Shown: piece after piece, positions 12,592 through 64,000 of the stretch
Numbering within the stretch: the stretch's first letter is position 1
Layout of the letters: every line of letters starts with the position of its first letter
NCBI RefSeq assembly: GCF_003382365.1
Contig: NZ_QTSU01000003.1
Span: 434,001-498,000 of the forward strand
Source: Lysobacter silvisoli
Lineage (GTDB): Bacteria; Pseudomonadota; Gammaproteobacteria; Xanthomonadales; Xanthomonadaceae
Reading direction: 5' to 3'
Length of the DNA: 64,000 nt
The notes under the pieces: model-generated
Told to the model about the DNA's origin: nothing
The model's input: the letters and a program-made list of their open reading frames with translations, nothing else
Database searches by the model: none
Program-made: the position numbers and the translations under genes

Positions 12592-12601
12592 GACCCTCGA
12601 T

Positions 12602-12715
12602 ACCGTCATTCCGGCGCAAGCCGGAACCCATTTTGATCTTGACCTGCCAGCCGCCCACCCGCGGTTCCACGGAGCGAAAATCAACATGGGTTCCGGCTTG
12701 CGCCGGAATGACGGT
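12602..12715. repeat. Palindromic element with perfect 29-bp terminal inverted repeats
   Basis: The left arm at 12602-12630 (starting ACCGTCATTCCGGCGCAAGC) and the right arm at 12687-12715 are exact reverse complements over 29 bp. Each arm also contains its own small palindrome (TTCCGGCGCAAGCCGGAA). The 56-bp centre has a rougher inner inverted repeat (TTTTGAT/AAAATCAA). The layout suits a BIME-like pair of REP sequences or a small MITE. It fills the gap between the hybrid kinase and the gamma-glutamyltransferase. Confidence 0.85.
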
Positions 12716-12827
12716 GGAGGTGAGCGCGCGGCGCCAGCGCACCTCGCGCAATCGGTCGTCTCCCCCGTCATGCGCCACCCGCCCCAGGTCTGCGTTATCG
12801 TCGCGGTCCGATCCGCGGAGCCTCGCC

Positions 12828-47902: not shown

Positions 47903-47985
47903 GCCGCAGGCCCGGTGCCCGCTAGAGGGCGCTCCGTTTTGCCGCTACCATCGTGGGCAGTCGCAAGGACTGCGCGGGGAGCGGC

Positions 47986-50601
<2,616 letters not shown>

Positions 50602-50667
50602 CCTAGGGCCCCGGTTCGGGCGTCAATCGAACGGCGGGCCCACCATCACGTGCAGGGGTAAGCAGGT

Positions 50668-51549
50668 ATGCAGGACAGCCAGTTATTGCAGGTGCTGTTG
50701 CCGATCGCGATCGCCTTGATCATGACCGGCATCGGCATGTCGCTGACGCCCGCGGATTTCCTGCGCATAGGCGAGCGGCCCAAGCCGGTGCTGGTGGGCG
50801 TGCTCGGTCATTACCTCTGGCTGCCCGCGCTGGGCTTCTTCGTCGCCTGGGCCTTTTCCTTGCCGGCCGAATACGCGGTCGGCCTGGTGCTGGTGGCCGC
50901 CTGCCCCAGCGGTTCCTCGTCCAATGCGCTGACCTACCTCAGCCGCGGCAACGTCGCCCTGGCCGTCAGCCTGACCGTGATCAGCGGCCTGATCACCTTC
51001 ATCAGCGTGCCGCTGCTGGTGAATCTGGCCCTGCACGTGTTCGCCGGCGAGCGTGCCGATCTCAGCGTGCCGTTCCGCAGCACCGCGCTGCACCTGGCGG
51101 TGCTGGTGTTGATCCCGATCCTGGTCGGCATGGCCGTGCGCCGCCTTGCGCCGCGCGCGGCGCTCAAGATCGAAAAGTGGACCGGCGTGTTCGCCGTGCT
51201 GGTGCTGCTGGCCATCATCATCGCCCTGGTCGTGCAGCAATGGGCGCAGCTGCCCGCGCTGTTGCGCGGCGTCGGCCTGCCGGCCTTCGTGCTTGCCTGC
51301 GGCGCCACCGCTGGCGGCGTGCTCCTGGGCCGCTGGCTACGCTTGGACCTGCCCGACGCGCTGACCGTCGGCATCGAAGTCGGCGTGCAGAACGCCACCC
51401 TGGCCGCACTGATCGCGCTGACCCTGATGAAGTCCGAACAGATCGCGGTGCCGGCGCTGATGTACGGCATGCTCATGTACATCCCGGCGGCGATGGTGGT
51501 GCTGTACGGTCGGCGCGCCGCGCGGCGCCGGGCCCAGGCGGCCGCGTGA
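50668..51549 (+). CDS. Bile acid:sodium symporter (BASS) family transporter
   Basis: A 293-residue membrane protein with about ten helices. Characteristic segments are GIGMSLTPADFLRI, the crossover helix LVAACPSGSSSNALTYLSRGNVALAVSLT and GIEVGVQNATLAALIAL (the E-x-G-x-Q-N sodium/substrate site). Bacterial members move organic anions with sodium; few have known substrates. The stop overlaps the GTG start of a GST-like gene (GTGA). It lies 66 bp after the A-T-TE synthetase on the same strand, so a link to that product is possible but not shown. Confidence 0.9.
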   Translation: MQDSQLLQVLLPIAIALIMTGIGMSLTPADFLRIGERPKPVLVGVLGHYLWLPALGFFVAWAFSLPAEYAVGLVLVAACPSGSSSNALTYLSRGNVALAVSLTVISGLITFISVPLLVNLALHVFAGERADLSVPFRSTALHLAVLVLIPILVGMAVRRLAPRAALKIEKWTGVFAVLVLLAIIIALVVQQWAQLPALLRGVGLPAFVLACGATAGGVLLGRWLRLDLPDALTVGIEVGVQNATLAALIALTLMKSEQIAVPALMYGMLMYIPAAMVVLYGRRAARRRAQAAA

Positions 51550-52256
51550 ACCTGCTGGTAGGCGAGGCCTTCTCGCCGTGGACGATCAAGGCGCGCTGGG
51601 CCTTGGATCGCTGCGGCGTCGCCTACGCCTATCGCGAATACACGCCCGGCCTGAGCGAGCCGTGGCTGCGTTGGAAGCTGGGCCGCTGGCGCCAGCCGGT
51701 ATCGGTGCCGGTGATGCTCACGCCCGGTCGCGCGCTGCTGGGTTCCTGGGAAATCGCGCAGTACGCCGGGCAGCAGGCGGGCGAGGAATGCCTAGGAGCC
51801 TTCGATCAGATCCAGCCCTGGGACCAAATCAGCGAACACGGCCTGGCGGCCGCGCGCACGCGCGTGGTCCGCGCGGTGCTCGCCGACGACCGCACCCTGG
51901 ACGAAGCGGTGCCGTTCCTGCCGGCCGGGGCGCGCTTCCTGCTGCGGCCCGTCGCCCGCAACGTGGCCGGCCGCCTGGACCGCAAATACGCCGCACTCGC
52001 CTTCGCCGACGCCCATCGCGACGCGTTGCTCGCGGTGCGTTCGGCGCTGGCGCAGTCCGGCACCGGCTTCGTGCTGGATCGCTTCAGCTACGCCGACATC
52101 AGCCTGTCGGTGTTGCTGGAGGCGGTGGTGCCGCAATCCGGCCCCGCCGTTCTCGGTCCGGCGCATCGCGCCTGCTGGCATCACGCCGCGCTGGCCGCGG
52201 AGTTCGCCGATCTGCTTGAATGGCGCGCAGGCTTGCAGCGCGACTACGGGCCGTGA
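51546..52256 (+). CDS. Glutathione S-transferase-like protein
   Basis: Starts at GTG 51546 inside the stop of the BASS gene; 236 residues. The N-terminal thioredoxin-like part has the GST opening VGEAFSPWTIKARWALDRCGVAYAYREY, and VPVMLTPGRALLGSWEIAQYAG supplies the cis-Pro and Ser-Glu-type glutathione contacts (here SWEI). The rest is an all-helical C-terminal domain. It may conjugate or isomerise a glutathione-linked substrate. Translational coupling to the carrier suggests a shared substrate. No subclass was assigned. Confidence 0.82.
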   Translation: MNLLVGEAFSPWTIKARWALDRCGVAYAYREYTPGLSEPWLRWKLGRWRQPVSVPVMLTPGRALLGSWEIAQYAGQQAGEECLGAFDQIQPWDQISEHGLAAARTRVVRAVLADDRTLDEAVPFLPAGARFLLRPVARNVAGRLDRKYAALAFADAHRDALLAVRSALAQSGTGFVLDRFSYADISLSVLLEAVVPQSGPAVLGPAHRACWHHAALAAEFADLLEWRAGLQRDYGP

Positions 52257-52317
52257 TGCTTCCGTGCTCAGCGCCACCGCCGATCAGAACCCTAAGCACC
52301 GGCCACCTGGAGTTTCG

Positions 52318-52782
52318 ATGAAGTACGCGCTCGCTCTCGCCCTGTTCGCCTTGGGTCCAGCCACGGCCGCCGAGCCGGCCACACCCGCGCCGTCGCTCGA
52401 ACAGCTCGTGCTGGCCCAGGACCAGGCTGTCTTCGCCGCGTTCAACGCTTGCGACGTCGCCGAGTTCCGCAAGTATTTCGACCCGGCGGTGGAGTTCTAC
52501 CAGGACAACGACGACGTGTCCGTCGGCGTGGACGAACTGGTCCAGTCCTTCGACGGACGCTGCAAGGACGGCAAGTCGAACCTGCGCCGCGAACTGGACG
52601 CATCAGCGGTGGAGGTGCATCCGATCCAGGGCTACGGTGCGGTCCAACTGGGCGCGCACCGCTTCTGGATCGTGGCCGACGGCGAGGCGGACGAACTGGC
52701 CGCGCAGCCGCGCTTCGTCCATCTGTGGAAACGCCAGGGCGAACGCTGGGTGATCACCCGCGTCATCAGTTACGGACACTGA
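52318..52782 (+). CDS. Secreted NTF2-like (SnoaL/DUF4440-type) protein
   Basis: The 154-residue protein carries a signal peptide (MKYALALALFALGPATAAEP). The mature part fits the small cone-shaped NTF2-like fold: QLVLAQDQAVFAAFNACDVAEFRKYFDPAVEFYQDND, a middle helix, and a closing strand pair FVHLWKRQGERWVITRVISYGH. DUF4440 members are ligand-binding or isomerase-like. It lies 62 bp after the GST-like gene and could belong to the same transcript. No catalytic residue can be named with confidence. Confidence 0.8.
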   Translation: MKYALALALFALGPATAAEPATPAPSLEQLVLAQDQAVFAAFNACDVAEFRKYFDPAVEFYQDNDDVSVGVDELVQSFDGRCKDGKSNLRRELDASAVEVHPIQGYGAVQLGAHRFWIVADGEADELAAQPRFVHLWKRQGERWVITRVISYGH

Positions 52783-52819
52783 CCCGAATCGCCGGAGGGC
52801 CAGACCCAGGAGTGGCGCG

Positions 52820-53224
52820 ATGAAACTTGCTCTAGTGTTGGCGGCTCTCATCCTGACCGGTTGCGCTAGCCGCGGTCCCATCGGTGGCCCGCTTAGCCTG
52901 ACCGGCACCTACCAGCTCCTGGGCGACGGCCAGCTCTGCTTGCTTCCGTCGCCCGGCTCCGCAAAGCGCCTGCCCCATTGGAAGGCCGGCGCGAGGCTCT
53001 GCTTCGCCAACACCTCGGAAGCGATCGATCTGCTCGGCGCCAGGGAGGCCTTCCAGAAAGTCGGCTACTCGCATGTCTGCGGATTCGAAGGCGAGGCGAG
53101 CGTCACCGCGACGGATTTTTGGCTCAACCTGGGCCAGGTCGGCGGGGAAGACTGGCGGTACCAGGCGCGGCTGGTAAGCGTCGAGCAGGTACGGCCGTCC
53201 AAACTCATTTCCTGCGAGCGCTGA
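52820..53224 (+). CDS. Small predicted lipoprotein, unknown function
   Basis: A 134-residue protein with a lipoprotein signal (MKLALVLAALILTGCASRG, lipobox LTGC) and an AGGAG site 8 bp before ATG 52820. The mature part includes LTGTYQLLGDGQLCLLPSPG and LCFANTSEAIDLLGAREAFQ, and has four further Cys. No known domain was recognised. Codon use in its second half is less GC-biased than in flanking conserved genes. Confidence 0.7.
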   Translation: MKLALVLAALILTGCASRGPIGGPLSLTGTYQLLGDGQLCLLPSPGSAKRLPHWKAGARLCFANTSEAIDLLGAREAFQKVGYSHVCGFEGEASVTATDFWLNLGQVGGEDWRYQARLVSVEQVRPSKLISCER

Positions 53225-53297
53225 TTCCCTTGCGTTCGCCCATTCGCCGCTTCGTATTCAGCAGCGTTCCATTCAAGACCTGGGTCGAGTAGACACC

Positions 53298-53552
53298 ATG
53301 CCCACCATCGATTTCAGCAAAGACGAAAAATCCATCCTCGTCCGCAAGCTCCAGCTTTACTTCAGCGAAGAGCTCAAGCAACCCATCGGCCAATTCGATG
53401 CGGAGTTCCTGCTGGACTTCATCTCCAGCGAACTGGGCGCGTACTACTACAACCGCGGCTTGTACGACGCCCAGGCCGCTCTGTCGGCCAAGCTGGAGGA
53501 TGTGCAGGACGCCATTTACCAGCTTGAGCAGCGCACGGACTTCAAACGGTAG
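53298..53552 (+). CDS. DUF2164 family protein
   Basis: An 84-residue cytoplasmic protein, starting MPTIDFSKDEKSILVRKLQL. It shows the DUF2164 pattern: YFSEELKQPIGQFDAEFLLDFISSELGAYYYNRGLYDAQAAL. The family has no established function. It is probably helical, and the last ~25 residues (KLEDVQDAIYQLEQRTDF) look coiled-coil-like. It sits among small accessory genes with lower GC than the region average. Confidence 0.85.
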   Translation: MPTIDFSKDEKSILVRKLQLYFSEELKQPIGQFDAEFLLDFISSELGAYYYNRGLYDAQAALSAKLEDVQDAIYQLEQRTDFKR

Positions 53553-53559
53553 TCGGAGC

Positions 53560-53829
53560 ATGTCCTACTCGAGCCATCGAAGGCTGGCGCTAGATGAGAG
53601 CATCCCGATTAGTCATCGGGTGTCGCACGTTCGTTCTTGCGCTCTGCATGTGGCACAGAAGTTGGGCGTACCGCGCTCGGAATTGCTCGACCTGATAGGC
53701 ATTTCGGATAGCTACGAGGATCAAGACCTGCCATCCATGACGCAGCTGGAGCAGGCCGTTCATTCGCTCGATGCTATCCGGCTTGCAGGTGGCTCCGGTG
53801 GAGCCCTGCCACCGCGCCGGGTGCCTTAG
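53560..53829 (+). CDS. Hypothetical protein of 89 residues
   Basis: The frame from ATG 53560 encodes MSYSSHRRLALDESIPISHR and onward, with a helical middle (CALHVAQKLGVPRSELLDLI). It starts 8 bp after the DUF2164 stop with only a weak CGGAGC site. Codon use is unlike the host pattern (ATT, AGT, TCT, ATA and GTA all occur), suggesting either a recently acquired gene or decaying non-coding DNA. No domain was recognised. Confidence 0.4.
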   Translation: MSYSSHRRLALDESIPISHRVSHVRSCALHVAQKLGVPRSELLDLIGISDSYEDQDLPSMTQLEQAVHSLDAIRLAGGSGGALPPRRVP

Positions 53830-53918
53830 CGGCAAAGCCCGACCTGCGGCGCAAACACCCACTGGCCCGCCCCCGCGCGCCTCGCTAAGCTGCCCCCATC
53901 ACCGACCGCTGGACAGGC

Positions 53919-55010
53919 ATGGACTCCTGGGCGCTAGCGCTGATCTTCGCCGGTCTCTCGCTCTCGCTGCTGGCCTGGTACGCGGGGCGGCGCCATGAGC
54001 GCGGCAGGCAGTCGCGGCGGCTGGCCGCGGTCCTGGGCGCCTTGTCGGCGCCGATGCCGGTGGCCTTCGTCGCCTGGGCGCCGCGATCGGGCGTGGTGCT
54101 GTGGAGCACCGCCGCCGAGCGGCTGTTCGGCGTGGATGCGACGCTGATGCTGGGTCAGGCATTGCCGGCGGAGCTGGAGGCCTTGCGCTGGACGGAGGTC
54201 GAGGCGGACAGGGCCCGGTCCGGCGCGCGCCTGCAGCTGCGCGGTGCCAACGGCGCGGTCGATGCCATGGTCTGGATGGCCACCGAGGCCGACGGCCTGG
54301 TCGTCGTGGCTATCGAGGATGTGCACTCCAGCGCAGCCAACGCGCGCGCCGCCGAGGTTGCGCGCGCGCAGCGCGACGCCCTGGTGCGCGAGGTGCATCA
54401 CCGGATCAAGAACAGCCTGCAGGGCGTGGCCGGCTTGCTGCGCCAGCATCTGTCCGACAAGCCCTTGCTCAAACCGCTGCTGGAAGCCGCCTCCGCCCAG
54501 GTCTCGGCGATCGCCGCGGTGCACGGGTTGCATGGCGAAGCCAAGGACGGGCGGATCGACCTGCGCATGCTGATCGTGCGGGTGGCCGCGTCGATCTCCG
54601 GCATCATGCATGTACCGATCACGGTGTCGGAACGGTGCGTGGTGCTGGAGCGTTTCAGCGTCAACGAAGAGGAGTCCGTGCCGGTGGCGATGGTGCTGAA
54701 CGAGCTCATCATGAACGCGGCCAAGCACCGCTCGCGTTCCGGCGCCAACGGCATCGTCGCCATCGATGCGGTCGCGCAGGCGCAGCGCGCGCAGATCCTG
54801 GTGAGCAATCCCGGGTTCCTGCCGGCGAACTTCGACTTCGGCGCGGGCGCCAACCTCGGCAACGGCCTGGGCCTGATCCGCTCGCTGTTGCCGCGGCGCG
54901 GCGCCAGCATCGCGCTGGCCGAGGAAGGGCGGCGCGTGGTGGCCACGCTGGTCCTGCACGCACCCGATGTACTCAGCGCCACCCCCCAGGATGAGGAGGC
55001 GATCGCATGA
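53919..55010 (+). CDS. Membrane sensor histidine kinase, HisKA_2 type
   Basis: The 363-residue kinase has one N-terminal membrane segment (MDSWALALIFAGLSLSLLAWYAG). A PAS-like region follows (about 45-130, including SGVVLWSTAAERLFGVDA). The HisKA_2 phospho-acceptor region is REVHHRIKNSLQGVAGLL (H160/H161), then an HATPase domain with VLNELIMNAAKH and GNGLGLI. HisKA_2 kinases such as EutW usually pair with ANTAR regulators. That is so here: the stop overlaps the start of a REC-ANTAR gene (ATGA). The signal is unknown, with almost no periplasmic loop to sense outside cues. Confidence 0.9.
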   Translation: MDSWALALIFAGLSLSLLAWYAGRRHERGRQSRRLAAVLGALSAPMPVAFVAWAPRSGVVLWSTAAERLFGVDATLMLGQALPAELEALRWTEVEADRARSGARLQLRGANGAVDAMVWMATEADGLVVVAIEDVHSSAANARAAEVARAQRDALVREVHHRIKNSLQGVAGLLRQHLSDKPLLKPLLEAASAQVSAIAAVHGLHGEAKDGRIDLRMLIVRVAASISGIMHVPITVSERCVVLERFSVNEEESVPVAMVLNELIMNAAKHRSRSGANGIVAIDAVAQAQRAQILVSNPGFLPANFDFGAGANLGNGLGLIRSLLPRRGASIALAEEGRRVVATLVLHAPDVLSATPQDEEAIA

Positions 55011-55618
55011 ACGGCGCACACCGCTTGCTGGTGGTCGACGACGACCGATTGGTGCTGGCGACGATCTGCCGCGGCTTGCAGGCCGCGGGCTATCGGGTCG
55101 AATCCGCGCAATCGGTGGACGAAGCGATCGCGCTGCTCGACGCCGCGCGCCCGGATCTGGCCTTGCTGGACATACGCATGGGCGAACGTGGCGGCTTCGA
55201 ACTCGCGCGCGAACTGCTGGCGCGCGACGGCATTCCCTTCATGTTCCTGTCGGCCTACGGCGACGAGGCCACGGTGGAGGAAGCCACCGAACTGGGCGCG
55301 GTGGGCTTCCTGGTCAAGCCGATCGACATACCGCAGATCATTCCGGCGGTGGAGGCGGCGCTGAAACGCGCCGCCGATCTCAGCCGTCTGCGCAGCACCG
55401 GCCGTCAGCTGGAGCAGGCGCTGGACCAGCAGCGCGGGATCAGCGTGGCGATCGGCATCCTGATGGAGCGGCATCGCTGGTCGCGCAGCGAAGCCGAGCT
55501 GCGCCTGCGCGACACCGCCCGTTCGCAGCGGCGCAAAATGACCGACCTGGCCGAAGGCATCGTGTTCGCGGCCGACGCTCTGGCGGCCTCGGCGTTGGGC
55601 GGGGACCGTTCGGATTAG
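55007..55618 (+). CDS. Response regulator with ANTAR RNA-binding output
   Basis: A 203-residue cytoplasmic regulator. REC (about 5-120) has the acidic cluster D11-D12-D13, phospho-acceptor D55 (LALLDIRMGERGG) and a Lys in LVKPID. A short coiled coil (RLRSTGRQLEQALDQQRG) leads to the three-helix ANTAR domain (about 140-190: ISVAIGILMERHRWSRSEAELRLRDTARSQRRKM). Phosphorylated ANTAR regulators dimerise and bind paired RNA stem-loops to prevent transcription termination. Its start overlaps the partner kinase stop. Which transcript it controls is not evident; no unmistakable twin-hexaloop target was seen nearby. Confidence 0.93.
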   Translation: MNGAHRLLVVDDDRLVLATICRGLQAAGYRVESAQSVDEAIALLDAARPDLALLDIRMGERGGFELARELLARDGIPFMFLSAYGDEATVEEATELGAVGFLVKPIDIPQIIPAVEAALKRAADLSRLRSTGRQLEQALDQQRGISVAIGILMERHRWSRSEAELRLRDTARSQRRKMTDLAEGIVFAADALAASALGGDRSD

Positions 55619-55642
55619 CGACGGGCTCGGCCTTGCACTGAG

Positions 55643-55670
55643 TTGACAAGCCCTCGCGATTGGTTTTAGC
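55643..55670 (+). promoter_or_regulatory. Candidate sigma-70 promoter of the GTPase/Roadblock operon
   Basis: An exact TTGACA at 55643-55648 is followed after 16 bp by a poor -10 (TTTAGC). It lies in the 180-bp gap before the 322-aa gene and would give a leader of about 120 nt. Support comes mainly from the perfect -35. Confidence 0.4.
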
Positions 55671-55798
55671 GTCTGTACCAGCCCCGGCGCCCCGCAAGCG
55701 CGCCCCGGCCGCAGCGACTGCCCCGACCCGGCAGCTCATCCGTTCCATTCGGCCCCGCACCCGCCGATCGCAGCAGCGATACGAGGGCTTGCGCGCCG

Positions 55799-56767
55799 AT
55801 GAACACAGACGCTCTTTTCGAACCCGCGCCCCACGCCGTGGCGCACGAGCGCGACGCCGTGCCCTTGCGCCTGCTCGTCGACGGCCTGGAGCCCGACGAA
55901 CGCGCGACGCTGGATGCGATCCTGAAGGTGGTGGGCCCCAAGTCCCTGCGCGGCTGGGCCTGGGCCGAAGGCACGGAGACCGACCTGTACCTGCACACGC
56001 GCGCCTTGCGCCGCCCCGGCGTGCACGCCGGCGTGTCGGGCCTGCTGCTGCGCGAACACGAAGCGGCGGCACCGCCGGAGGCGTTGACGTTGGCGGTGCC
56101 GTTCCGGGTGATGGCGGTGCTGGAACTGTTGGACGGCGCGATCGACCGCTTGCAGCGCGAGCGGCTCGCGGCCCCGGCCGAAGCGCCGGAAGACGACAAG
56201 ACCCTGGCCTCGTCGCTGGCGCGTCTGCTGGCGCGCCCGGTCGATCACACCTTGCGCGTGCGCGTGCTGGGTCATGGCACGGTCTATCTGTGCACGCGCA
56301 GCCGCATGTACTGCATGGACTTCGCCCAGGAACAGTTGGGCAAGGCGCTGGAATCCAAGCGCTTCGTGCTCACCGCGATCGCGCCGGACTCGCCGGAACT
56401 GAGCGCCGAGCGCGATCACGGCTCGCCGCTGGACGAATTGCTGTGGCCGATCGGGCTGATGACGCCGCGCGAACAGGCGACGCGGCAGGAGCGCCATCGC
56501 CTGCGCCAGTGGCCGGACTTCGCGCGCCTGCCGCACGAGCCCCGCCATCTGCAGGCCTGCGCCGTGCTGGCAGCCACGGCGATGGATGCGCGCGAACTGG
56601 CCGCCGCCACCGGCCTGAGCGACACCGAAGCCGACCATTTCCTGCACGCCTGCGAGTTGTGCGGCGTATTGGAAGCGGCGGCCGCCGAACCGCCGCCGCC
56701 CGCGCCCACCCCAAGCAAACCCACAGGCGGTCTGTTCGATCGCCTGTGGCGGCGCTGGCTGAAATAG
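55799..56767 (+). CDS. Unknown protein of a GTPase/Roadblock operon, possible winged-helix C-terminus
   Basis: The 322-residue protein is predicted cytoplasmic. An N-terminal mixed domain (LRLLVDGLEPDERATLDAILKVVG) and a middle region with CTRSRMYCMDF match nothing I know. Residues about 235-300 (WPDFARLPHEPRHLQACAVLAATAMDARELAAATGLSDTEADHFLHACELCGVLE) read like a winged helix-turn-helix. A proline linker and a basic tail (GGLFDRLWRRWLK) follow, perhaps a membrane-touching amphipathic end. It is 10 bp upstream of the GTPase gene, so the two should act together. Comparable proteins beside COG2229 GTPases play the part DUF742 plays in Streptomyces conservons (analogy only). Confidence 0.7.
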   Translation: MNTDALFEPAPHAVAHERDAVPLRLLVDGLEPDERATLDAILKVVGPKSLRGWAWAEGTETDLYLHTRALRRPGVHAGVSGLLLREHEAAAPPEALTLAVPFRVMAVLELLDGAIDRLQRERLAAPAEAPEDDKTLASSLARLLARPVDHTLRVRVLGHGTVYLCTRSRMYCMDFAQEQLGKALESKRFVLTAIAPDSPELSAERDHGSPLDELLWPIGLMTPREQATRQERHRLRQWPDFARLPHEPRHLQACAVLAATAMDARELAAATGLSDTEADHFLHACELCGVLEAAAAEPPPPAPTPSKPTGGLFDRLWRRWLK

Positions 56768-56777
56768 GGAGAGTCCG

Positions 56778-57341
56778 ATGCCCCGCGAATACATCGTGCT
56801 GGTGGCCGGCCCCATGGGCGCCGGCAAGACCACCGCCATCGCCGCGCTCAGCGAAATACCGGTGGTGCTCACCGAGGCGGTCAACACCGATCAGGCGCGC
56901 CATGCCAAGGCCACCACCACGGTGGCGCTGGATTACGGCGAGATCTCGCTGGGCGACGGCGACAAGGTGCGGCTCTACGGCGTGCCGGGGCAGGACCGCT
57001 TCGATTTCATGTGGCGCATCCTGGAAAAGCGCTCGCTGGGCATGATGCTGCTGATCGACAACGGCGCCACCGACCCCTTGTCCGATCTGGAGCGCTATCT
57101 GCATCACTTCGACACGTTGGGCGCGCGCAGTGCGCTGGTGGTCGGCGTGACCCGTCGCGACCAGGGCGGCACGCCGCCGATGGAGGCCTACCACGCGCGC
57201 CTGGGACGGCTGGGCCGGGTGCTGCCGGTGTTCTCGGTGGATGCGCGCAACGCCGCGCAGGTGCGCACCATGCTGGGCGCGCTGATCGCCATGGTCGAAG
57301 CCAAGGCCGCCGCGCGTGCGCACGCGGGGGCCGTCGCATGA
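56778..57341 (+). CDS. Ras-like small GTPase (COG2229/MglA-CvnD type)
   Basis: The 187-residue GTPase has G1 LVAGPMGAGKTTAIAAL, a switch-I Thr region (KATTTVALDYGEI) and G3 YGVPGQDRFDFMW. The Asp of the usual DxxG is replaced by Val-Pro-Gly, as in MglA-type and COG2229 proteins. The G4 position reads VGVTRRD instead of NKxD. It therefore belongs to the prokaryotic GTPases regulated by Roadblock proteins, two of which follow (the first overlapping by ATGA). In Myxococcus MglA sets cell polarity; Streptomyces CvnD controls development. Its own role here is unknown. Confidence 0.88.
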   Translation: MPREYIVLVAGPMGAGKTTAIAALSEIPVVLTEAVNTDQARHAKATTTVALDYGEISLGDGDKVRLYGVPGQDRFDFMWRILEKRSLGMMLLIDNGATDPLSDLERYLHHFDTLGARSALVVGVTRRDQGGTPPMEAYHARLGRLGRVLPVFSVDARNAAQVRTMLGALIAMVEAKAAARAHAGAVA

Positions 57342-57727
57342 GCGCGCACGATCTGCATTCGCCCTGTCGCGACGTGCTGGAAGCGCTGGTGACCCAGACC
57401 CTGGGCGTGGACTCGGCGGCGGTGGTCACCGGCGACGGTTTCGAGGTCGCCGCGGTGCTGCGCGAGGGCGTGGCCGGCGAGCGCCTGGCGGCGATGGTGA
57501 GTTCGCTGCTCGCGCTGAGCGAAGCGGTGGCGCTGGAGCTGGGCATGAACGGTTGCCGCAACGTCATCGTCGAAACCGAGGCCGGCGCGGTGGTGACCCT
57601 GCGCATTCCGGCTTCAGGCCGCGAACTGCTGATGAGCGTGCTGTGCAGCGACGCGGCCAGCCTGGGCTCGGTGCTGTACGCCGCGCGCGACACCGCGCGC
57701 ACCCTGGGGCAGCGCCTGACGACCTGA
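57338..57727 (+). CDS. Roadblock/LC7-type protein, first of two
   Basis: This 129-residue protein starts at ATG 57338 inside the GTPase stop. It shows the Roadblock pattern VLEALVTQTLGVDSAAVVTGDGFEVAAVL, then ERLAAMVSSLLALSEAVALELG and NVIVETEAGAVVTLRIP. Such dimers act as GTPase-activating or platform proteins for MglA-type GTPases (MglB, CvnB). Coupled translation implies a stoichiometric partner of the GTPase. It is distinct from the second Roadblock protein in both length and sequence. Confidence 0.85.
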   Translation: MSAHDLHSPCRDVLEALVTQTLGVDSAAVVTGDGFEVAAVLREGVAGERLAAMVSSLLALSEAVALELGMNGCRNVIVETEAGAVVTLRIPASGRELLMSVLCSDAASLGSVLYAARDTARTLGQRLTT

Positions 57728-57803
57728 TCCGCATAACGGCCGCGGACGTCGCATCGGGTCCGCCGCCGTCCACTGTCCGGTGCGAAAGGGAGGAGTAGGG
57801 GCC

Positions 57804-58163
57804 ATGGGCAATCTGACGCAATCGCTGGAAGAACTGATGCAGATCGACGGCGCGGCCGCCGCCGCGGTGGTGGATTCCAACAGCGGCATGGTGCTGGGCA
57901 AGGCCGGCGGCGGCGTGGACCTGGACGTCGCCGGCGCCGGCAACACCGAAGTGGTGCGCGCCAAACTCAAGACGATGAAATCGCTGGGCCTCAAGGACAA
58001 CATCGAGGACATCCTGATCACCCTGGGCAAGCAGTACCACGTGATCCGGCCCATGGCCGAGCGCTCGGGCGTCTTCATCTACCTGGTGCTGGACAAGGCC
58101 AAGTCCAGCCTGGCGCTGGCGCGGATCAAGACTGCGGAAATCGAGGCGGGGATGTCGCTGTAG
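57804..58163 (+). CDS. Roadblock/LC7-type protein, second of two
   Basis: The 119-residue protein starts at ATG 57804 with a very strong site (AAGGGAGGAGTAGGGGCC), so it may be made in excess over the upstream proteins. The Roadblock pattern is LTQSLEELMQIDGAAAAAVVDSNSGMVLGKAG, then VVRAKLKTMKSLGLKDNIEDILITLGKQYHVIRPM, ending VFIYLVLDKAKSSLALARI. Related single-domain proteins in proteobacteria are short relatives of MglB. With the preceding Roadblock gene it could form homo- or heterodimers on the GTPase. It closes the operon; a separate promoter candidate follows. Confidence 0.85.
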   Translation: MGNLTQSLEELMQIDGAAAAAVVDSNSGMVLGKAGGGVDLDVAGAGNTEVVRAKLKTMKSLGLKDNIEDILITLGKQYHVIRPMAERSGVFIYLVLDKAKSSLALARIKTAEIEAGMSL

Positions 58164-58236
58164 CCGCTGTCTTCTGGGCTCCCGGCGCCGGGTGGCCGCC
58201 GGGGGGCCAGTCGCGGCGGGGGGCCGCGGCGGCCAG

Positions 58237-58264
58237 TTGAGATTCGCCGGTAAGGGCGTACATT
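58237..58264 (+). promoter_or_regulatory. Candidate sigma-70 promoter of the GGDEF-EAL gene
   Basis: TTGAGA (58237-58242), a 16-bp spacer and TACATT (58259-58264) lie 34 bp before ATG 58298. The pair agrees at 5/6 and 4/6 positions with consensus, and would give a short leader. Confidence 0.45.
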
Positions 58265-58297
58265 CTGTGCCTACATGCCACGCTCTGGGGGCTGGAC

Positions 58298-60712
58298 ATG
58301 CAGCACAGGGATGTCGCTGCGGCGCGTAGCGCGAACTGGTACGCGACGCCCGGCAGCAAGAAGGCGCCATGGCGCGTCTGGCTGGGTTTTGTCGCCCTGG
58401 TGTTCGCCGCGGGGCTGGCCACGGTGATTTCCGCCGCCGTGATCGAGATCCAGGCCGGCGCCACCGCCTATCTGGTCGGCGAGGGCCATTGGTCGCGGGC
58501 GCGGCTGGAAATCGTCTACCACCTGGACCGCTACGCGGCGCGCGGCGATCCGCGCGAACTGGCGTTGGCGCGCAAGGCGCTGGAAGTGCCCATGGGCGAT
58601 CGCGCCGGACGACTGGCGCTGGAGCGCAGCCCGCCGGACCTGCAGGCGGCCGCGCAGGGCTTTCGCGCCGGCCGCAACGCCGAGGCGGATATCCCGCGTC
58701 TGATCTGGGTGTACCGCAATTTTTCCAAGGCGCCGTTCTTCGCCGACGCGGTCGCGATCTGGCGCGAGGCCGAACCGCACATCTTCCGGCTGCAGGCCAT
58801 CGCCGATCAGCTGGAAGCGCACTGGCGCCAGCCGGGCGCCGGCGCCGCCGGACCGCAGGTGCGCGCGGAATTGGACCGCATCGGCCGAACTCTGCAGCCG
58901 ATGGAGCGGCGCTTCGCCGACACCCTGCTCGACGGCGTCGCGCAGGTGCGGGTGATGCTGCTGCTGGTCAGCGGCGTGCTGTTCGTGGTCATCGCCGCGC
59001 TCGCGGTGCTCGCCTACTACTCGTCGCTGCGCCGCATCCGCGCCACCGAGAGCCGCTTCCGCGCCGCCTTCCAGCAGGCCAGCGTGGGCATGGTCAAGCT
59101 CAACACCGATGGACTGGTGCTGGCCGCCAACGAGGAACTGGCGGCGATGCTGGGCCATTCCGCCGAGTACCTGGTGGGCACGCGCTTCAGCGACCATCTC
59201 AACGACGGCGGCGCGGCCGACGACAGCTGGATGAACGCCACCGCGCCGGTGGAACACCGCGTGCGCCGCGCCGACGGCAGCCAGTTCTGGGGCCGCATCA
59301 CCACCTCCAACGTACAGGTGGAGCATGGCGACGGCCGCATCTTCCTCATCGTCGAGGACGTGTCCGAGGCGCGCGACCTGACCCAGATCCTGACCTTCCA
59401 GGCCAGTCACGACGGCCTCACCGGCCTGATCAACCGGCGCGAGATCGAGCAACGCCTGGACGGTCTGCTCGCGCAGGCGCACGCCGACGGGCGCCGCCAC
59501 ACCCTGTGCTTCCTCGATCTGGATCAGTTCAAGCTCATCAACGACACCTGCAGCCACGCCGCCGGCGACGAAGTGCTGCGGCTGATCGCGACGACCCTGC
59601 CCGGCCATCTGCGTCCGCAGGATTGGATGGGCCGCCTGGGTGGCGACGAGTTCGCGGTGCTGCTGCACGACACGCCGGTCGACGCCGCGACCGCGCTCGC
59701 CGGCCGCATGAACCAGATCCTGGCCGATACCTGCCTGCTGTGGGAGGGCCACCATTTCGCCCTGACCGCGAGCATCGGCCTGGTCGAGATCAACGCCGAA
59801 AGCCCGACCGTGGCCTGGCTGCTGCGCGCGGCCGACACCGCCTGCTACCTGGCCAAGGACGGCGGCCGCAACAGCATCCAGGTCTATGCCGAAAGCGACG
59901 CCGAGGTCGCCCAGCGCCACCGCGAGATGCACTGGATCGACCAGACCCGGTCGGCGATCGCCGAAGACCGCCTGCAGCTGTACGCGCAGCGCATCGTGCC
60001 CTTGGATCCGGCCGCGGGCGGACTGCAGTACGAGATCCTAGTTCGCCTGCGCGACCACAACGGCAACCTGTGCCAGCCCGGCGCGTTCCTGCCGGCGGCC
60101 GAGCGTTACGGCCAGGCCAGCATGATCGACCTGCAGGTGCTGACGCTAACGGTGCAGGCCTTGTCGCGCAACCGCGCGCACCTGAACCAGCTGGAGCTGT
60201 GCCACGTGAACGTGTCTGGCCAGTCGGCGGCGTCGCGCGACTTCTGCCGGCGCGCCGAAGCGCTGCTGACGGCCAACCCCGAGGTGGCCCGCAAGCTGTG
60301 CTTCGAGCTGACCGAGACCGCGTCCATCGACCGGCTGTCGCAAGCGCGCGCCTTCATCGAGACCGTGCATGCGCACGGTTGCCTGGTGGCGCTGGACGAT
60401 TTCGGCAGCGGCCTGTCGTCGTTCGCCTATCTCAAGAGCCTGCCGGTGGACATCCTCAAGATCGACGGCCTGTTCGTGCGCGACATCGATCGCAACGACC
60501 TGGACTACGCCGTGGTCCGCGCGATCACCGAGGTCGCGCGTTCGCAGGGCAAGCGCACCGTGGCCGAATGGGCCGAGACGCCCGCCGTGCTGCAGCGCCT
60601 GCGCGACATCGGCGTGGATGCCGCCCAGGGCTATGCCATCCACGAGCCCTGCCCGCTGCAGGAACTGATCCGCCAGGTCGGCCCGGCCGCGCCGACATCC
60701 CACGTCGCCTGA
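58298..60712 (+). CDS. Membrane PAS-GGDEF-EAL c-di-GMP enzyme with degenerate EAL
   Basis: An 804-residue inner-membrane protein. Two membrane segments (about 26-48 and 224-242) enclose a periplasmic helical sensor. PAS (about 255-365), GGDEF (about 375-540) and EAL (about 550-795) follow. GGDEF is intact (448-452, LGGDEF), with an RxxD I-site exactly five residues before it (RPQD-WMGRL-GGDEF), so product-inhibited diguanylate cyclase activity is expected. The EAL domain keeps ELTET, DDFGSGLSS and KIDG, but EAL is EIL (579-581) and EGVET is EWAET, so phosphodiesterase activity is doubtful. It follows the Roadblock genes and may be their output or a separate unit. Confidence 0.92.
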   Translation: MQHRDVAAARSANWYATPGSKKAPWRVWLGFVALVFAAGLATVISAAVIEIQAGATAYLVGEGHWSRARLEIVYHLDRYAARGDPRELALARKALEVPMGDRAGRLALERSPPDLQAAAQGFRAGRNAEADIPRLIWVYRNFSKAPFFADAVAIWREAEPHIFRLQAIADQLEAHWRQPGAGAAGPQVRAELDRIGRTLQPMERRFADTLLDGVAQVRVMLLLVSGVLFVVIAALAVLAYYSSLRRIRATESRFRAAFQQASVGMVKLNTDGLVLAANEELAAMLGHSAEYLVGTRFSDHLNDGGAADDSWMNATAPVEHRVRRADGSQFWGRITTSNVQVEHGDGRIFLIVEDVSEARDLTQILTFQASHDGLTGLINRREIEQRLDGLLAQAHADGRRHTLCFLDLDQFKLINDTCSHAAGDEVLRLIATTLPGHLRPQDWMGRLGGDEFAVLLHDTPVDAATALAGRMNQILADTCLLWEGHHFALTASIGLVEINAESPTVAWLLRAADTACYLAKDGGRNSIQVYAESDAEVAQRHREMHWIDQTRSAIAEDRLQLYAQRIVPLDPAAGGLQYEILVRLRDHNGNLCQPGAFLPAAERYGQASMIDLQVLTLTVQALSRNRAHLNQLELCHVNVSGQSAASRDFCRRAEALLTANPEVARKLCFELTETASIDRLSQARAFIETVHAHGCLVALDDFGSGLSSFAYLKSLPVDILKIDGLFVRDIDRNDLDYAVVRAITEVARSQGKRTVAEWAETPAVLQRLRDIGVDAAQGYAIHEPCPLQELIRQVGPAAPTSHVA

Positions 60713-60772
60713 TCGCGCCAAACTAGTGGCCCGGCCTCAGCCTGGTGCCAGACGTAGTCGGCACCCGGCAGA

Positions 60773-60793
60773 TTTGCACTAAGATGGTGCAAT
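60773..60793. promoter_or_regulatory. NtrC box overlapping the ntrB start codon
   Basis: TTTGCACT-AAGAT-GGTGCAAT differs from the glnA box (35091-35111) at only four positions, and its final bases include the A and T of the ntrB ATG (60792-60794). Bound NtrC would cover the ribosome-binding region's DNA and probably the promoter, predicting autorepression, as NtrC does at glnL in enteric bacteria. Confidence 0.85.
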
Positions 60794-61853
60794 GTCGCCC
60801 GAATCGCCTCCCGCACCGGCCCTGGACGGCCTGACCACGCCGCTGGCCTGGAGCGACGCGGGCGGTGCGATCCTGGGCTGCAACCTGGCGTTTTCGCGCT
60901 GGCTCGGGGTCAGCGCGCGGCGGCTCAACGGCTGGCCGCTGGCCGGGCTGGACGCGGGCGACGGCCGCCTGGCCGCGGCGCTGACGCGCACCGCCGCCGA
61001 CGAGTCGCTGCGGCTGCGCCGCATCCGCCTGCGCTACGCCGACGGCGACGAGCGCTTCGCCGACCTGTGGCTGAGCCGGCACGGCGAAGGCGGCTGGCTG
61101 CTGGAGGCGCATCCGGTGGACGAGTTCCCCGGCGACGATCCGGCGCTGCTGCTGCCGTCGGCCTTGTCGGCCTCGCTCAAGGGCCTGGCGCACGAGCTGC
61201 GCAATCCGCTGGCCGGCGTCAAAGGCGCGGCGCAGTTGCTGGCGCGGCGTCTGGACGCGGGCAACGGTCACAACGGCGATTCGCGCGAGCTGGTCGAACT
61301 GATCGACAGCGAAGTCGATCGCCTGACCGCGTTGCTGGACCGCCTGCTCAACCCGGCGCCGCCGCGCGCGCATGCGCCGCTCAACATCCATGCGGTGCTG
61401 GAGCGCGTGCTGCGCCTGGCCGAAAGCGAAGCGGGCTGGGCGCTGCGCCTGGTGCGCGACTACGACCCCAGCCTGCCCGAGTTCGCCGGCGACGCCGACC
61501 GGCTGATGCAGGCGCTGTGGAACCTGGTGCGCAACGCCATCGAGGCCGGCGCCAGCCAGGTCAGCCTGCGCACGCGCGCTGAGCACGGCGTGCGCATCGC
61601 CGAGGCGATCCACCCGATCGCGCTGCGCCTGGAGATTTCCGACGACGGCCGCGGCGTGCCCGAGGAACTGGCCGAGCAGCTGTTCCTGCCGCTGGTGTCC
61701 GGCCGCGCCGAGGGCAGCGGCCTGGGCCTGGCGCTGGCGCAGCAGGTCGCGCGCGAGCACCGCGGTTCGCTGGCCTACCGCTCGCGCCCGGGCCACACCG
61801 TGTTCACCCTGCTGCTGCCGATGCACATCGAAGAGGGGGCGCCGCCCGCATGA
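60792..61853 (+). CDS. ntrB: Nitrogen sensor kinase NtrB (GlnL)
   Basis: This soluble kinase of 353 residues phosphorylates NtrC under nitrogen limitation and is switched to phosphatase mode by P-II. A PAS-like N-terminus (LAWSDAGGAILGCNLAFSRWLG) precedes the H-box LKGLAHELRNPLAGVKGAAQLL (H134). The N-box is ALWNLVRNAIEAG, and ATP-binding glycine boxes EISDDGRGVPEELAEQLFLPLVSGR and GSGLGLALAQ follow. The start ATG 60792 lies within an NtrC box and has only a weak AAGATGG site. The stop overlaps ntrC (ATGA). It works with GlnK (38225) and glnA (35284). Confidence 0.95.
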   Translation: MSPESPPAPALDGLTTPLAWSDAGGAILGCNLAFSRWLGVSARRLNGWPLAGLDAGDGRLAAALTRTAADESLRLRRIRLRYADGDERFADLWLSRHGEGGWLLEAHPVDEFPGDDPALLLPSALSASLKGLAHELRNPLAGVKGAAQLLARRLDAGNGHNGDSRELVELIDSEVDRLTALLDRLLNPAPPRAHAPLNIHAVLERVLRLAESEAGWALRLVRDYDPSLPEFAGDADRLMQALWNLVRNAIEAGASQVSLRTRAEHGVRIAEAIHPIALRLEISDDGRGVPEELAEQLFLPLVSGRAEGSGLGLALAQQVAREHRGSLAYRSRPGHTVFTLLLPMHIEEGAPPA

Positions 61854-63265
61854 ACGCCAGCTCGGCAACGCCGGCGCGCGTGTGGGTGGTCGACGACGAC
61901 CGCAGCGTGCGCTTCGTCCTGGCCACCGCGCTGCGCGAGGCCGGCTACAGCGTGGACGGCTTCGAAAACGCCGACGACGTGCTCGCGGCGCTGGCGCTGC
62001 GCGGCGCGCCCGACCTGCTCTACACCGACGTGCGCATGCCCGGCGACGACGGCCTGGTCTTGCTGGACAAGCTCAAGGCCGCCGCGCCGCGCCTGCCGGT
62101 GATCGTGATGAGCGCCTACACCGACGTGGCCAGCACCGCCGGCGCGTTCCGCGGCGGCGCGCACGAGTTCCTGTCCAAGCCCTTCGATCTGGACGATGCG
62201 GTGGCGCTGGCCGCGCGCGCGCTGGGCACCGAGCACGGCGCCGCTGCGCCCGCGGCCGAGGCCGCGCCGCCCGCCGATACGCTGATCGGCGACACGCCGG
62301 CCATGCGCACCTTGTTCCGCGCGATCGGCCGCCTGGCGCAGGCGCCGCTGTCGGTGCTGATCACCGGCGAAACCGGCACCGGCAAGGAACTGGTCGCGCG
62401 CGCGCTGCACCGCGAATCGCCGCGCGCCGCGCGCCCGTTCGTGGCGCTCAACACCGCGGCGATCCCGGCCGAGCTGCTGGAAAGCGAATTGTTCGGCCAC
62501 GAGGCCGGCGCCTTCACCGGCGCGCAGCGCCGCCACATCGGCCGCTTCGAGCAGGCCGACGGCGGCAGCCTGTTCCTGGACGAAATCGGCGACATGCCGC
62601 TGACTTTGCAGACGCGGCTGCTGCGCGTACTGGCCGAGGGCGAGTTCTTCCGCGTCGGCGGGCGCGAGCTGATCCGCGTGGACGTGCGTGTGATCGCCGC
62701 CACCCACCAGGACCTGGAAACTCTGGTCGCCGAGGGCCGCTTTCGCGCCGATCTGCTGCACCGGTTGGACGTGGTACGCCTTCGCCTGCCGCCGCTGCGC
62801 GAACGCCGCGCCGACATCGCCCAACTGGCCGAGCGCTTCCTGGCCGCGGCCGCGGCCAAGTTCGCGGCCACGCCCAAACGCCTGTCCAAGCCCGCGCTGG
62901 AACGGCTGCTGGCGCACGACTGGCCCGGCAACGTGCGCGAACTGGAGAACGTGTGCTGGCGCCTGGCCGCGTTGGCGCCGGCCGACAGCATCACCCGCGC
63001 CGACCTGGACGAAGTGCTGGCCGCCTCCGGCCCCGCGCGCGCGGCCGACGACGACTGGGACGCGCGCCTGTCGGCCTGGGCGCGCGCGCAGCTGGCCGAA
63101 GGCGCGCAGGACCTGCACGCGCATGCGCGCGAACGCTTCGACCGCGCCCTGCTGGAGGCGGCGCTGGAGCACACCGGCGGCCGCCGCACCGAAGCCGCCG
63201 CGCGCCTGGGCCTGGGCCGCAACACGCTGACCCGAAAACTGGGCACGGGGCGCAAGCGCAGCTAG
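61850..63265 (+). CDS. ntrC: Sigma-54 activator NtrC (GlnG)
   Basis: The 471-residue bacterial enhancer-binding protein has a receiver with acceptor D60 (LLYTDVRMPGDDG). The AAA+ domain has Walker A GETGTGKELVARALH, the sigma-54-contacting GAFTGA loop (220-225), Walker B GGSLFLDEIGDMPL and the arginine finger region FRADLLHRLDVVRLRLPPLRER. A Fis-type C-terminal HTH (LLEAALEHTGGRRTEAAARLGLGRNTLTRKL) completes it. It should activate the glnA sigma-54 promoter from the box at 35091 and repress ntrBC through the box at 60773. It is translationally coupled to ntrB. Confidence 0.96.
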   Translation: MNASSATPARVWVVDDDRSVRFVLATALREAGYSVDGFENADDVLAALALRGAPDLLYTDVRMPGDDGLVLLDKLKAAAPRLPVIVMSAYTDVASTAGAFRGGAHEFLSKPFDLDDAVALAARALGTEHGAAAPAAEAAPPADTLIGDTPAMRTLFRAIGRLAQAPLSVLITGETGTGKELVARALHRESPRAARPFVALNTAAIPAELLESELFGHEAGAFTGAQRRHIGRFEQADGGSLFLDEIGDMPLTLQTRLLRVLAEGEFFRVGGRELIRVDVRVIAATHQDLETLVAEGRFRADLLHRLDVVRLRLPPLRERRADIAQLAERFLAAAAAKFAATPKRLSKPALERLLAHDWPGNVRELENVCWRLAALAPADSITRADLDEVLAASGPARAADDDWDARLSAWARAQLAEGAQDLHAHARERFDRALLEAALEHTGGRRTEAAARLGLGRNTLTRKLGTGRKRS

Positions 63266-63407
63266 CGATCCGCGCACACCTGCGCGGGTCGCGGCGACGG
63301 CCCGACGGCGGTGTGCGGACTCTGCTTGGTTTCACCGTTGCTGAACCGGCCGCGCGCTAGCCTCGTATGCTTGGACTTACAGCATCGACCTCATGCAAGG
63401 AGCCGCC

Positions 63408-63980
63408 ATGAACGCCGCCGCCCGCACCGCACTGATCGCCGCCGCCGTCCTCGCCCTGAGCGCTTGCGGTTCCGCGCCGCCCAAGACCAAGGCGCCGCCG
63501 CCGGCACCCAAGCCGGTGTCCACCGCGCAGTCCGGGCAGGCGATCCTGGCTTCGGCCTCGGGCAGCCTGGTCAGCGGCAAGCTGAAGCTGACGCCCACCG
63601 CCGACGGCGTGCGCCTGACCGGCGTGATCGGCGGCTTCGCACCCAACAGCGTGCACGCGATCCATATCCACGAGAAGGGCGATTGCAGCGCGGTCGACGC
63701 CAGCAGCGCCGGCGGCCATTTCAATCCCGGCATGAGCGCGCACGGCAAGGCCGACAGCGGCACCCATCACGGCGGCGACATGGACAACATCACCGCCGAT
63801 GCCGAAGGCGTGGCCCAGGTCGACGCGCATGCGCGTGCGGTGACCTTGGGCGGCGGCGCCAGCAACGACGTCGCCGGCCGCGCGGTGATCGTGCATGCCG
63901 CGCCCGACGACTACGTGACCCAGCCGACCGGCAACGCGGGCGCACGCCTGGCCTGCGGCGTGATCTCCGTGTCGCACTGA
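63408..63980 (+). CDS. sodC: Cu/Zn superoxide dismutase, lipoprotein
   Basis: The 190-residue protein starts at ATG 63408 after an ideal AAGGAGCCGCC site; an ATG five codons earlier is less well placed. The signal ends in a lipobox (LALSACGSA), so it is anchored at the periplasmic face. The metal site is complete by eye: HAIHIHEKGDC (Cu ligands), GGHFNP, SGTHHGGDMDNI (Zn/Cu ligands, including Asp) and GRAVIVHAAPDDYVTQPTGNAGARLACGVI (last Cu His and the disulfide Cys). It dismutates superoxide in the periplasm, protecting against host or competitor oxidative attack. It appears monocistronic and ends 20 bp before the window edge. Confidence 0.95.
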   Translation: MNAAARTALIAAAVLALSACGSAPPKTKAPPPAPKPVSTAQSGQAILASASGSLVSGKLKLTPTADGVRLTGVIGGFAPNSVHAIHIHEKGDCSAVDASSAGGHFNPGMSAHGKADSGTHHGGDMDNITADAEGVAQVDAHARAVTLGGGASNDVAGRAVIVHAAPDDYVTQPTGNAGARLACGVISVSH

Positions 63981-64000
63981 CATGTCGCGACTGCGAATTC

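Follow-up and report, generated by a model that had tools for sequence, protein, structure and literature searches.

A HisKA_2 kinase/REC-ANTAR pair of a divergent ANTAR class in front of a Group 3 MglA-type GTPase operon in Lysobacter silvisoli

We analysed a 64,000-nt stretch of Lysobacter silvisoli DNA (contig NZ_QTSU01000003.1, positions 434,001-498,000; hereafter the window) and, within it, an island at positions 53919-58163 whose six genes encode, in this order, a HisKA_2 histidine kinase, a REC-ANTAR response regulator, a 322-amino-acid (322-aa) protein, a small Ras-like GTPase of MglA type and two Roadblock/LC7 proteins, with a gene for a PAS-GGDEF-EAL protein next door (Table 1). All six are present on the plus strand where an earlier reading of the same DNA (the original prediction) had placed them, and inspection of the sequence likewise bore out its two ATGA overlaps (kinase/regulator and GTPase/Roadblock 1) and a gap between the regulator and the 322-aa gene, which measures exactly 180 bp (55619-55798). 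For Roadblock 2, the ATG at 57804 is the likelier start, as aligned relatives begin there, with the GTG at 57780 also possible. Domains were assigned by a Pfam search of nine window proteins, in which matches were considered up to E 1 and domain calls used the curated cut-offs; genes in the compared neighbourhoods were located by tblastn and profiles.

Table 1. Features of the island and its downstream neighbour, numbered from the first nucleotide of the window.
Feature	Position	Strand	Basis
HisKA_2 (HWE-like) histidine kinase	53919..55010	+	Pfam HisKA_2, 39.1 bits (cut-off 22.3)
REC-ANTAR response regulator, divergent ANTAR subclass	55007..55618	+	Pfam Response_reg and ANTAR above cut-off
Promoter-like TTGACA-N18-TAGCGT, 5' of GTPase operon	55643..55672	+	Hexamers and spacing the same in cf310 and Root916
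Stable leader hairpin that covers the 322-aa start codon	55742..55804	+	Fold z-score against shuffles
322-aa Group-3-associated protein	55799..56767	+	Homologues at GTPase loci; no Pfam family above cut-off
Small Ras-like GTPase, MglA Group 3 type	56778..57341	+	Pfam ATP_bind_1 (1.9e-10) and motifs
Roadblock/LC7 protein 1, MglB-like	57338..57727	+	Robl_LC7 (7.4e-10); Asp-Gly pair conserved
Roadblock/LC7 protein 2	57804..58163	+	Alignment to relatives, some of which match Robl_LC7
PAS-GGDEF-EAL protein	58298..60712	+	Pfam and motifs

To judge from motifs and operon make-up, the four right-hand genes are not new and fit a published system, Group 3 MglA. In the available portion of its description, Group 3 systems of beta- and gamma-Proteobacteria, including Xanthomonas, combine an unknown protein, a GTPase and one or two MglB proteins, with Thr replacing the intrinsic Arg finger, an atypical G4 and a DAR-type G5 in the GTPase, and an Asp-Gly pair in the Roadblock protein (Wuichet and Sogaard-Andersen, 2014; PMC4316618). 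The window has the same make-up and catalytic signature: its GTPase carries GPMGAGKT, KATTT (G2, with Thr rather than Arg), YGVPGQ (G3, where V replaces the T of the GTPGQ that, with the G2 Thr, marks Groups 2-5; some relatives share the V and many others have YGTPGQ), VTRRD (G4, lacking the lysine of NKxD) and VDAR (G5, with DAR, whose D155 and R157 are invariant in 38 sequences), and D33 and G34 of Roadblock 1 are invariant in 24 sequences. When the GTPase profile was compared with solved structures, MglA was among the 60 matches listed, ranking below eukaryotic Rab/Sec4. Roadblock 2 gave no Pfam match of its own, but Robl_LC7 matched 11 of the 30 proteins aligned with it when E values as high as 1 were allowed (best 1e-8); it is the most conserved of the six proteins, with 96% identity in two other Lysobacter. 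The two Roadblock genes are separated by a 76-bp spacer (57728-57803) that is 84% identical in three Lysobacter genomes, like coding DNA, and no unusual RNA fold was found around it at 57740-57810.

The GTPase/Roadblock signalling block of the original prediction is supported. With thresholds of 1e-10 and 1e-20, respectively, the GTPase turned up in 51 of 198 genomes of the family and in 65 of 369 genomes of the class; of 200 genomes of the order, 36 had a 322-aa homologue at E 0.001. Sixty neighbourhoods were fetched, 56 of them with the GTPase by profile. At 54 of these 56 there was a 322-aa homologue (exceptions L096 and L100), on the same strand and at most 500 bp upstream in 53, and at 54 at least one Roadblock match (exceptions L032 and L043); the other four of the 60 had a 322-aa homologue with no GTPase match. 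The first 40 loci had contributed sequences to the profiles; the other 20, which had not, all have the 322-aa homologue, directly upstream of the GTPase in 19. Eight loci (L093-L095, L097-L099, L102 and L103) have an alternative order of Roadblocks, diverged 322-like gene and GTPase. As for the 322-aa protein itself, called winged-helix-like in the original prediction, we suspect a degenerate receiver-like N-terminus and a C-terminus resembling a winged helix-turn-helix (wHTH). Among 28 relatives, a few had helix-turn-helix-type Pfam matches, the best of them (8.9e-5) to a dimerisation domain; profile comparison with REC gave the right register at a non-significant level (P 0.047, probability 1.1%), and an AlphaFold model built on only four sequences, from the window and related loci, was poor, with a predicted confidence score (pLDDT) of 39.6. 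REC-like and wHTH-like folds are also given by Phyre2 for the unknown protein of Group 3 systems, according to the accessible text of PMC4316618.

The original prediction had called the island conservon-like. It does share with the actinobacterial conservons (CvnA-D) the clustering of a kinase gene, a Roadblock gene and a gene for an MglA-family GTPase, but differs in having a HisKA_2 kinase gene overlapping a response-regulator gene, two Roadblocks and another GTPase group. Membership was rejected, since a CvnA-type kinase comes without a cognate response regulator and none of the nine window proteins matched DUF742/CvnC, even at E 1; Group 3 MglA, which already includes an unknown protein and up to two Roadblocks, is the nearer relative. 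Similarly, Myxococcus MglA/MglB/RomR resembles the window in joining a GTPase, a Roadblock GTPase-activating protein (GAP) and a receiver-domain protein, RomR, which is not known to be an ANTAR protein. Myxococcus MglA is nonetheless of Group 1, with TVPGQ and an Arg finger, unlike the window GTPase (PMC4316618, in part).

The kinase/ANTAR pair in front of the Group 3 operon is the unusual and novel part of the locus. The kinase matches HisKA_2 with E 7.9e-10 and also HWE_HK (29.4 bits, cut-off 22.8), and has an H-box (HHRIKN, from residue 160), an N-box, a possible N-terminal membrane segment by hydropathy and a PAS-like stretch below cut-off (17.8 against 22.6 bits). The regulator matches Response_reg (2.6e-25; 89.2 bits, cut-off 30.2) and ANTAR (5.4e-13; 48.9 bits, cut-off 27.3), its receiver residues D12, D13, D55, S82 and K104 being intact, and its best solved relatives are EutV (6wsh) and Rv1626/PdtaR (1s8n). 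EutW/EutV and PdtaS/PdtaR are like the window pair in that a kinase feeds a REC-ANTAR regulator, and neither is known to have a GTPase partner. The claim that no described system adds an ANTAR protein to such a module agrees with our literature search, which found no report joining ANTAR with MglA/MglB, a weak absence as most subscription journals were outside its coverage; the available portion of PMC4316618 likewise makes no mention of ANTAR.

A scan of the genome collection with the ANTAR protein yielded 27 loci, three of which have the full six-gene order: Lysobacter sp. cf310, Lysobacter sp. Root916 and Chiayiivirga flava, making four genomes of two genera with the window. Since the order is conserved in these three, the island is more than a chance arrangement, and between the genera it is kept with the 322-aa protein at 47% identity. 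In cf310 and Root916 the six genes are followed by the GGDEF-EAL gene and then a kinase/sigma-54-regulator pair. Within the family, an ANTAR orthologue at E 1e-25 occurs in three of 198 genomes, all three with the GTPase 1.2-1.3 kb downstream. Viewed from the other side, 24 of 80 GTPase-bearing genomes have an ANTAR domain, which lies beside the GTPase in four (the window genome, G211, G091 and G673), a count made by comparing positions by eye and limited by draft contigs. Co-occurrence of the kinase/ANTAR and GTPase/Roadblock halves, on which the original prediction had been made to depend, is thus rare from the GTPase side (4/80) and tight from the ANTAR side (3/3).

Similar pairing recurs in a second, distant bacterial order, and the kinase/ANTAR-GTPase combination is for this reason probably meaningful. 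On one strand, genome G673 has genes for a HisKA_2 kinase, a REC-ANTAR regulator, a REC-GGDEF-EAL protein, a second HisKA_2 region, a 322-like protein, the GTPase, an ABC/phosphatase protein, one Roadblock-like and one Roadblock protein; G756, also on one strand, has an ANTAR protein, a HisKA_2 kinase, an ABC/phosphatase protein, two Roadblock-like proteins, a 322-like protein, the GTPase, a Roadblock protein and a second ANTAR protein. Among the 57 genomes of their order, four ANTAR matches at E 1e-35 fall in these two, three of the four within 10 kb of a GTPase. The ABC/phosphatase protein shared by both clusters may point to one ancestral event. It consists of an ABC ATPase joined to a DSP-type phosphatase (L211:4935-6308 in G673, L216:9361-10800 in G756), lies next to the Roadblock-like proteins and is a possible further partner of these GTPases. 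A kinase/322-aa fusion suggested by an 865-aa open reading frame (ORF) in G673 was rejected, as the kinase part leaves the frame in its ATPase domain and the 322-like part starts later. The second HisKA_2 region there (L211:6865-9462) is nearly identical to the kinase at 11719-12903 with its ATPase part out of frame, and is either a recent duplication or a damaged gene.

The original prediction had assigned the regulator an RNA-binding arm. EutV grips RNA hexaloops through R142, K143, K147, K149, E160, Y164, R168 and M172, among other residues, in the accessible part of PMC8934654. We aligned the ANTAR domains from every fetched locus with those of EutV and AmiR. In the 21 canonical rows, a class into which EutV and Rv1626/PdtaR fall, R142, K149 and M172 are always kept and position 147 is K or R. 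A divergent subclass of 18 distinct rows, comprising among others the window, Chiayiivirga, G673, G756 and L107-L112, lacks R142, K147, K149 and M172 throughout, has R at 172 and in 16 rows carries a basic ARxxRR motif; E160 is kept in two of its rows (L110 and L209), position 164 is aromatic in most, and a planctomycete row (L113) is intermediate between the classes. The window regulator has Q142, R143, V147, I149, R160, E164, R168, R172 and R175, so that R142, K147, K149, E160, Y164 and M172 of EutV are all replaced. Because most of the EutV RNA-contact residues are missing, the RNA-binding arm is doubtful; should the subclass not read the usual hexaloop RNA, not every annotated ANTAR antiterminator would be one. 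Among the GTPase-bearing genomes, divergent-class ANTAR proteins lie beside the GTPase in four of seven, against none of 18 with canonical ones (p 0.003, read by eye, three of the four being orthologues and unaligned matches such as G576 and G441 left unclassed). Of 21 loci in the divergent set, 13 had a HisKA_2 kinase, against none of 21 canonical loci, a lead rather than a statistic, as the canonical loci all had only ~1.5 kb of flank, like several others, and the divergent set contains overlapping cut-outs of the same genomes.

Two features stand out in the gap between the halves. The possible promoter of the original prediction is plausible: TTGACA-18 nt-TAGCGT is identical in cf310 and Root916 within a stretch (55619-55690) whose overall identity in the three genomes is 60%, although it was not listed by a stricter promoter consensus scan. 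The leader that follows (55691-55798) is 83% identical in the three Lysobacter genomes, and identity is lower upstream of the kinase (33%), ahead of the GGDEF-EAL gene (65%) and within the 322-aa gene (77%). A hairpin reaching over the start codon has a folding energy of -29.5 kcal/mol (z -3.76, none of 200 shuffles being as stable; z -2.85 and -3.69 in the two relatives), and folding the gap as a whole gave z -1.24. Covariation is no proof of this hairpin, since two-sided changes occur in only two of 43 pairs of the consensus fold. Of 25 further loci that have a 322-aa homologue but no ANTAR gene, several with guessed start codons, a single one (L043, -3.4) had a z of -3 or below, and a start-codon hairpin as a general feature of such systems was rejected on this count and on its lack in Chiayiivirga and G756. 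The leader has no copy elsewhere in the genome. Searches for the dual hexaloop hairpin (A1, G4) found none with stems of at least four pairs on either strand of the island, to which the genome search was confined, and, with stems of three, the sense strand had three while shuffled sequences averaged 3.05. Canonical ANTAR RNA was rejected for the island and for the G756 and G673 regions, where nothing rose above shuffles (G673 has one dual hairpin at stem four, equalled by 52 of 100 shuffles), and Rfam gave no match up to E 1 in 50000-64000.

The locus is thus a known, little-studied type of GTPase switch whose two-component partner, of an unusual ANTAR class, is uncommon and apparently recurrent. 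Our preferred reading, to which we give a probability of roughly 0.45, is that 55799-58163 is a Group 3 MglA system that gained, in a small Lysobacteraceae clade, a dedicated HisKA_2/REC-ANTAR input regulating the GTPase operon. The kinase would phosphorylate the regulator, which would set the output of the neighbouring operon through RNA or protein contact, and the GTPase would work with its two Roadblock partners, at least one of them likely a GAP, and with the 322-aa protein as a dedicated partner. Such a module probably controls surface or type IV pilus behaviour, which would be the likeliest output in the window too, given a PilM association and a Snodgrassella mutant. PilM, a type IVa pilus protein, reached E 1e-38 or better in 61 of the 65 genomes with the GTPase and in 211 of the 304 without it (Fisher 8e-6; 60/65 and 4.5e-5 without the borderline G624), a cut-off close to that of the PilM family and passed by 272 of 369 genomes, the count for the GTPase genomes being read by eye; in Snodgrassella, as far as the available text goes, G78R in an orphan Roadblock (mglB) gene of a Group 3 system changed how the bacterium spread on soft agar and competed in the gut (PMC11112851). 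The Group 3 type of GTPase is widespread, its input does not emerge from the accessible part of PMC4316618, and a fixed two-component pair would supply one that can be tested.

Several observations weigh against this reading and mostly favour another, on the whole rather unlikely, in which a Group 3 MglA operon and an unrelated HisKA_2/ANTAR pair have merely stayed side by side since the Lysobacter/Chiayiivirga ancestor with no shared pathway. No ANTAR gene lies beside the GTPase in 76 of the 80 GTPase genomes, the ANTAR orthologue occurs in only two of nine sampled genomes of the window's genus, and the promoter-like site means that the halves may be separate transcripts. No GTPase was found in the retrieved DNA around seven ANTAR relatives (L107-L113) whose identity is 33-55%, two of their contigs being shorter than 6 kb. 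The kinase/ANTAR pair therefore works elsewhere in beta/gamma genomes without the GTPase, since five of the seven (L107, L108, L110, L111 and L112) have a HisKA_2 kinase beside the ANTAR gene and no GTPase match; the remaining 17 of the 27 ANTAR loci are more distant, also with no GTPase match. The hairpin, too, is not kept in Chiayiivirga (z -1.2) and is absent in G756, the island yielded no clear canonical ANTAR target RNA, EutV-type RNA contacts are absent from the regulator, and the PilM statistics ignore phylogeny. Independent neighbours fit poorly, on the other hand, with an order kept between genera despite the divergence of the 322-aa protein while DNA upstream of the kinase has fallen to 33% identity within Lysobacter, and with the comparable linkage in G673 and G756. 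The chance of the latter is 3e-4 for both genomes if selection is ignored, but G673 was picked because the linkage had been seen, leaving G756 as the unselected case with a crude chance of ~0.03. Of the original proposal that the two halves act as one pathway, their linkage by gene order is supported in more than one lineage, and the shared pathway is what we infer.

As for its mode of action, the regulator might no longer bind RNA and be a phosphorylation-controlled protein partner, for example of the 322-aa protein or the Roadblocks, in the way that RomR, a response regulator, works with MglA in Myxococcus (PMC4316618, in part). The EutV contacts replaced in the window regulator, four of them (R142, K147, K149 and M172) in all 18 subclass members, and the lack of a dual-hairpin target above shuffles argue for this, whereas the ANTAR score far over cut-off, R168, R175 and the basic residue at 143 in the window, the aromatic 164 in most other members and the ARxxRR motif in 16 of the 18 make an altered RNA site equally possible; we consider the protein-partner reading possible but improbable. 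Less likely still is that the module mainly tunes cyclic di-GMP (c-di-GMP), with the kinase/ANTAR pair and the GTPase both acting on the adjacent GGDEF-EAL enzyme. This protein has a GGDEF motif and the usual EAL motifs. Its gene, noted as a neighbour in the original prediction, adjoins the island in three Lysobacter genomes, a REC-GGDEF-EAL gene lies inside the G673 cluster, and GGDEF/EAL matches occur near ANTAR homologues in L109, L110 and L111. In Chiayiivirga, by contrast, no such match was found in the ~5 kb after or the ~7 kb before the six genes, nor was there one in the G756 region, and, GGDEF-EAL genes being abundant in such genomes, chance neighbours are expected. For PdtaS, the kinase paired with the ANTAR protein PdtaR, the accessible part of PMC11537054 reports binding of c-di-GMP through a GAF domain, but Pfam found no GAF domain in the window kinase. 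Returning to the dedicated-input reading, we would extend it only as a long shot to the whole ANTAR class that lacks EutV-type contacts and mostly carries ARxxRR, which might serve as the phosphorelay input of Ras-like GTPase modules, acting in Lysobacter through the start-codon hairpin; if true, two-component signalling, RNA control and a GTPase switch would be joined in one locus.

Directly after the GGDEF-EAL gene, Pfam identified an NtrB/NtrC-like pair (60792-63265) made up of a HisKA kinase and, with an ATGA overlap, a receiver/sigma-54-activator/Fis-type regulator, which is kept at the same place in two other Lysobacter genomes. Upstream of the island, the window contains an 882-aa ORF (47953-50601) that, judged by adenylation, carrier and thioesterase motifs, resembles a stand-alone non-ribosomal peptide synthetase module.

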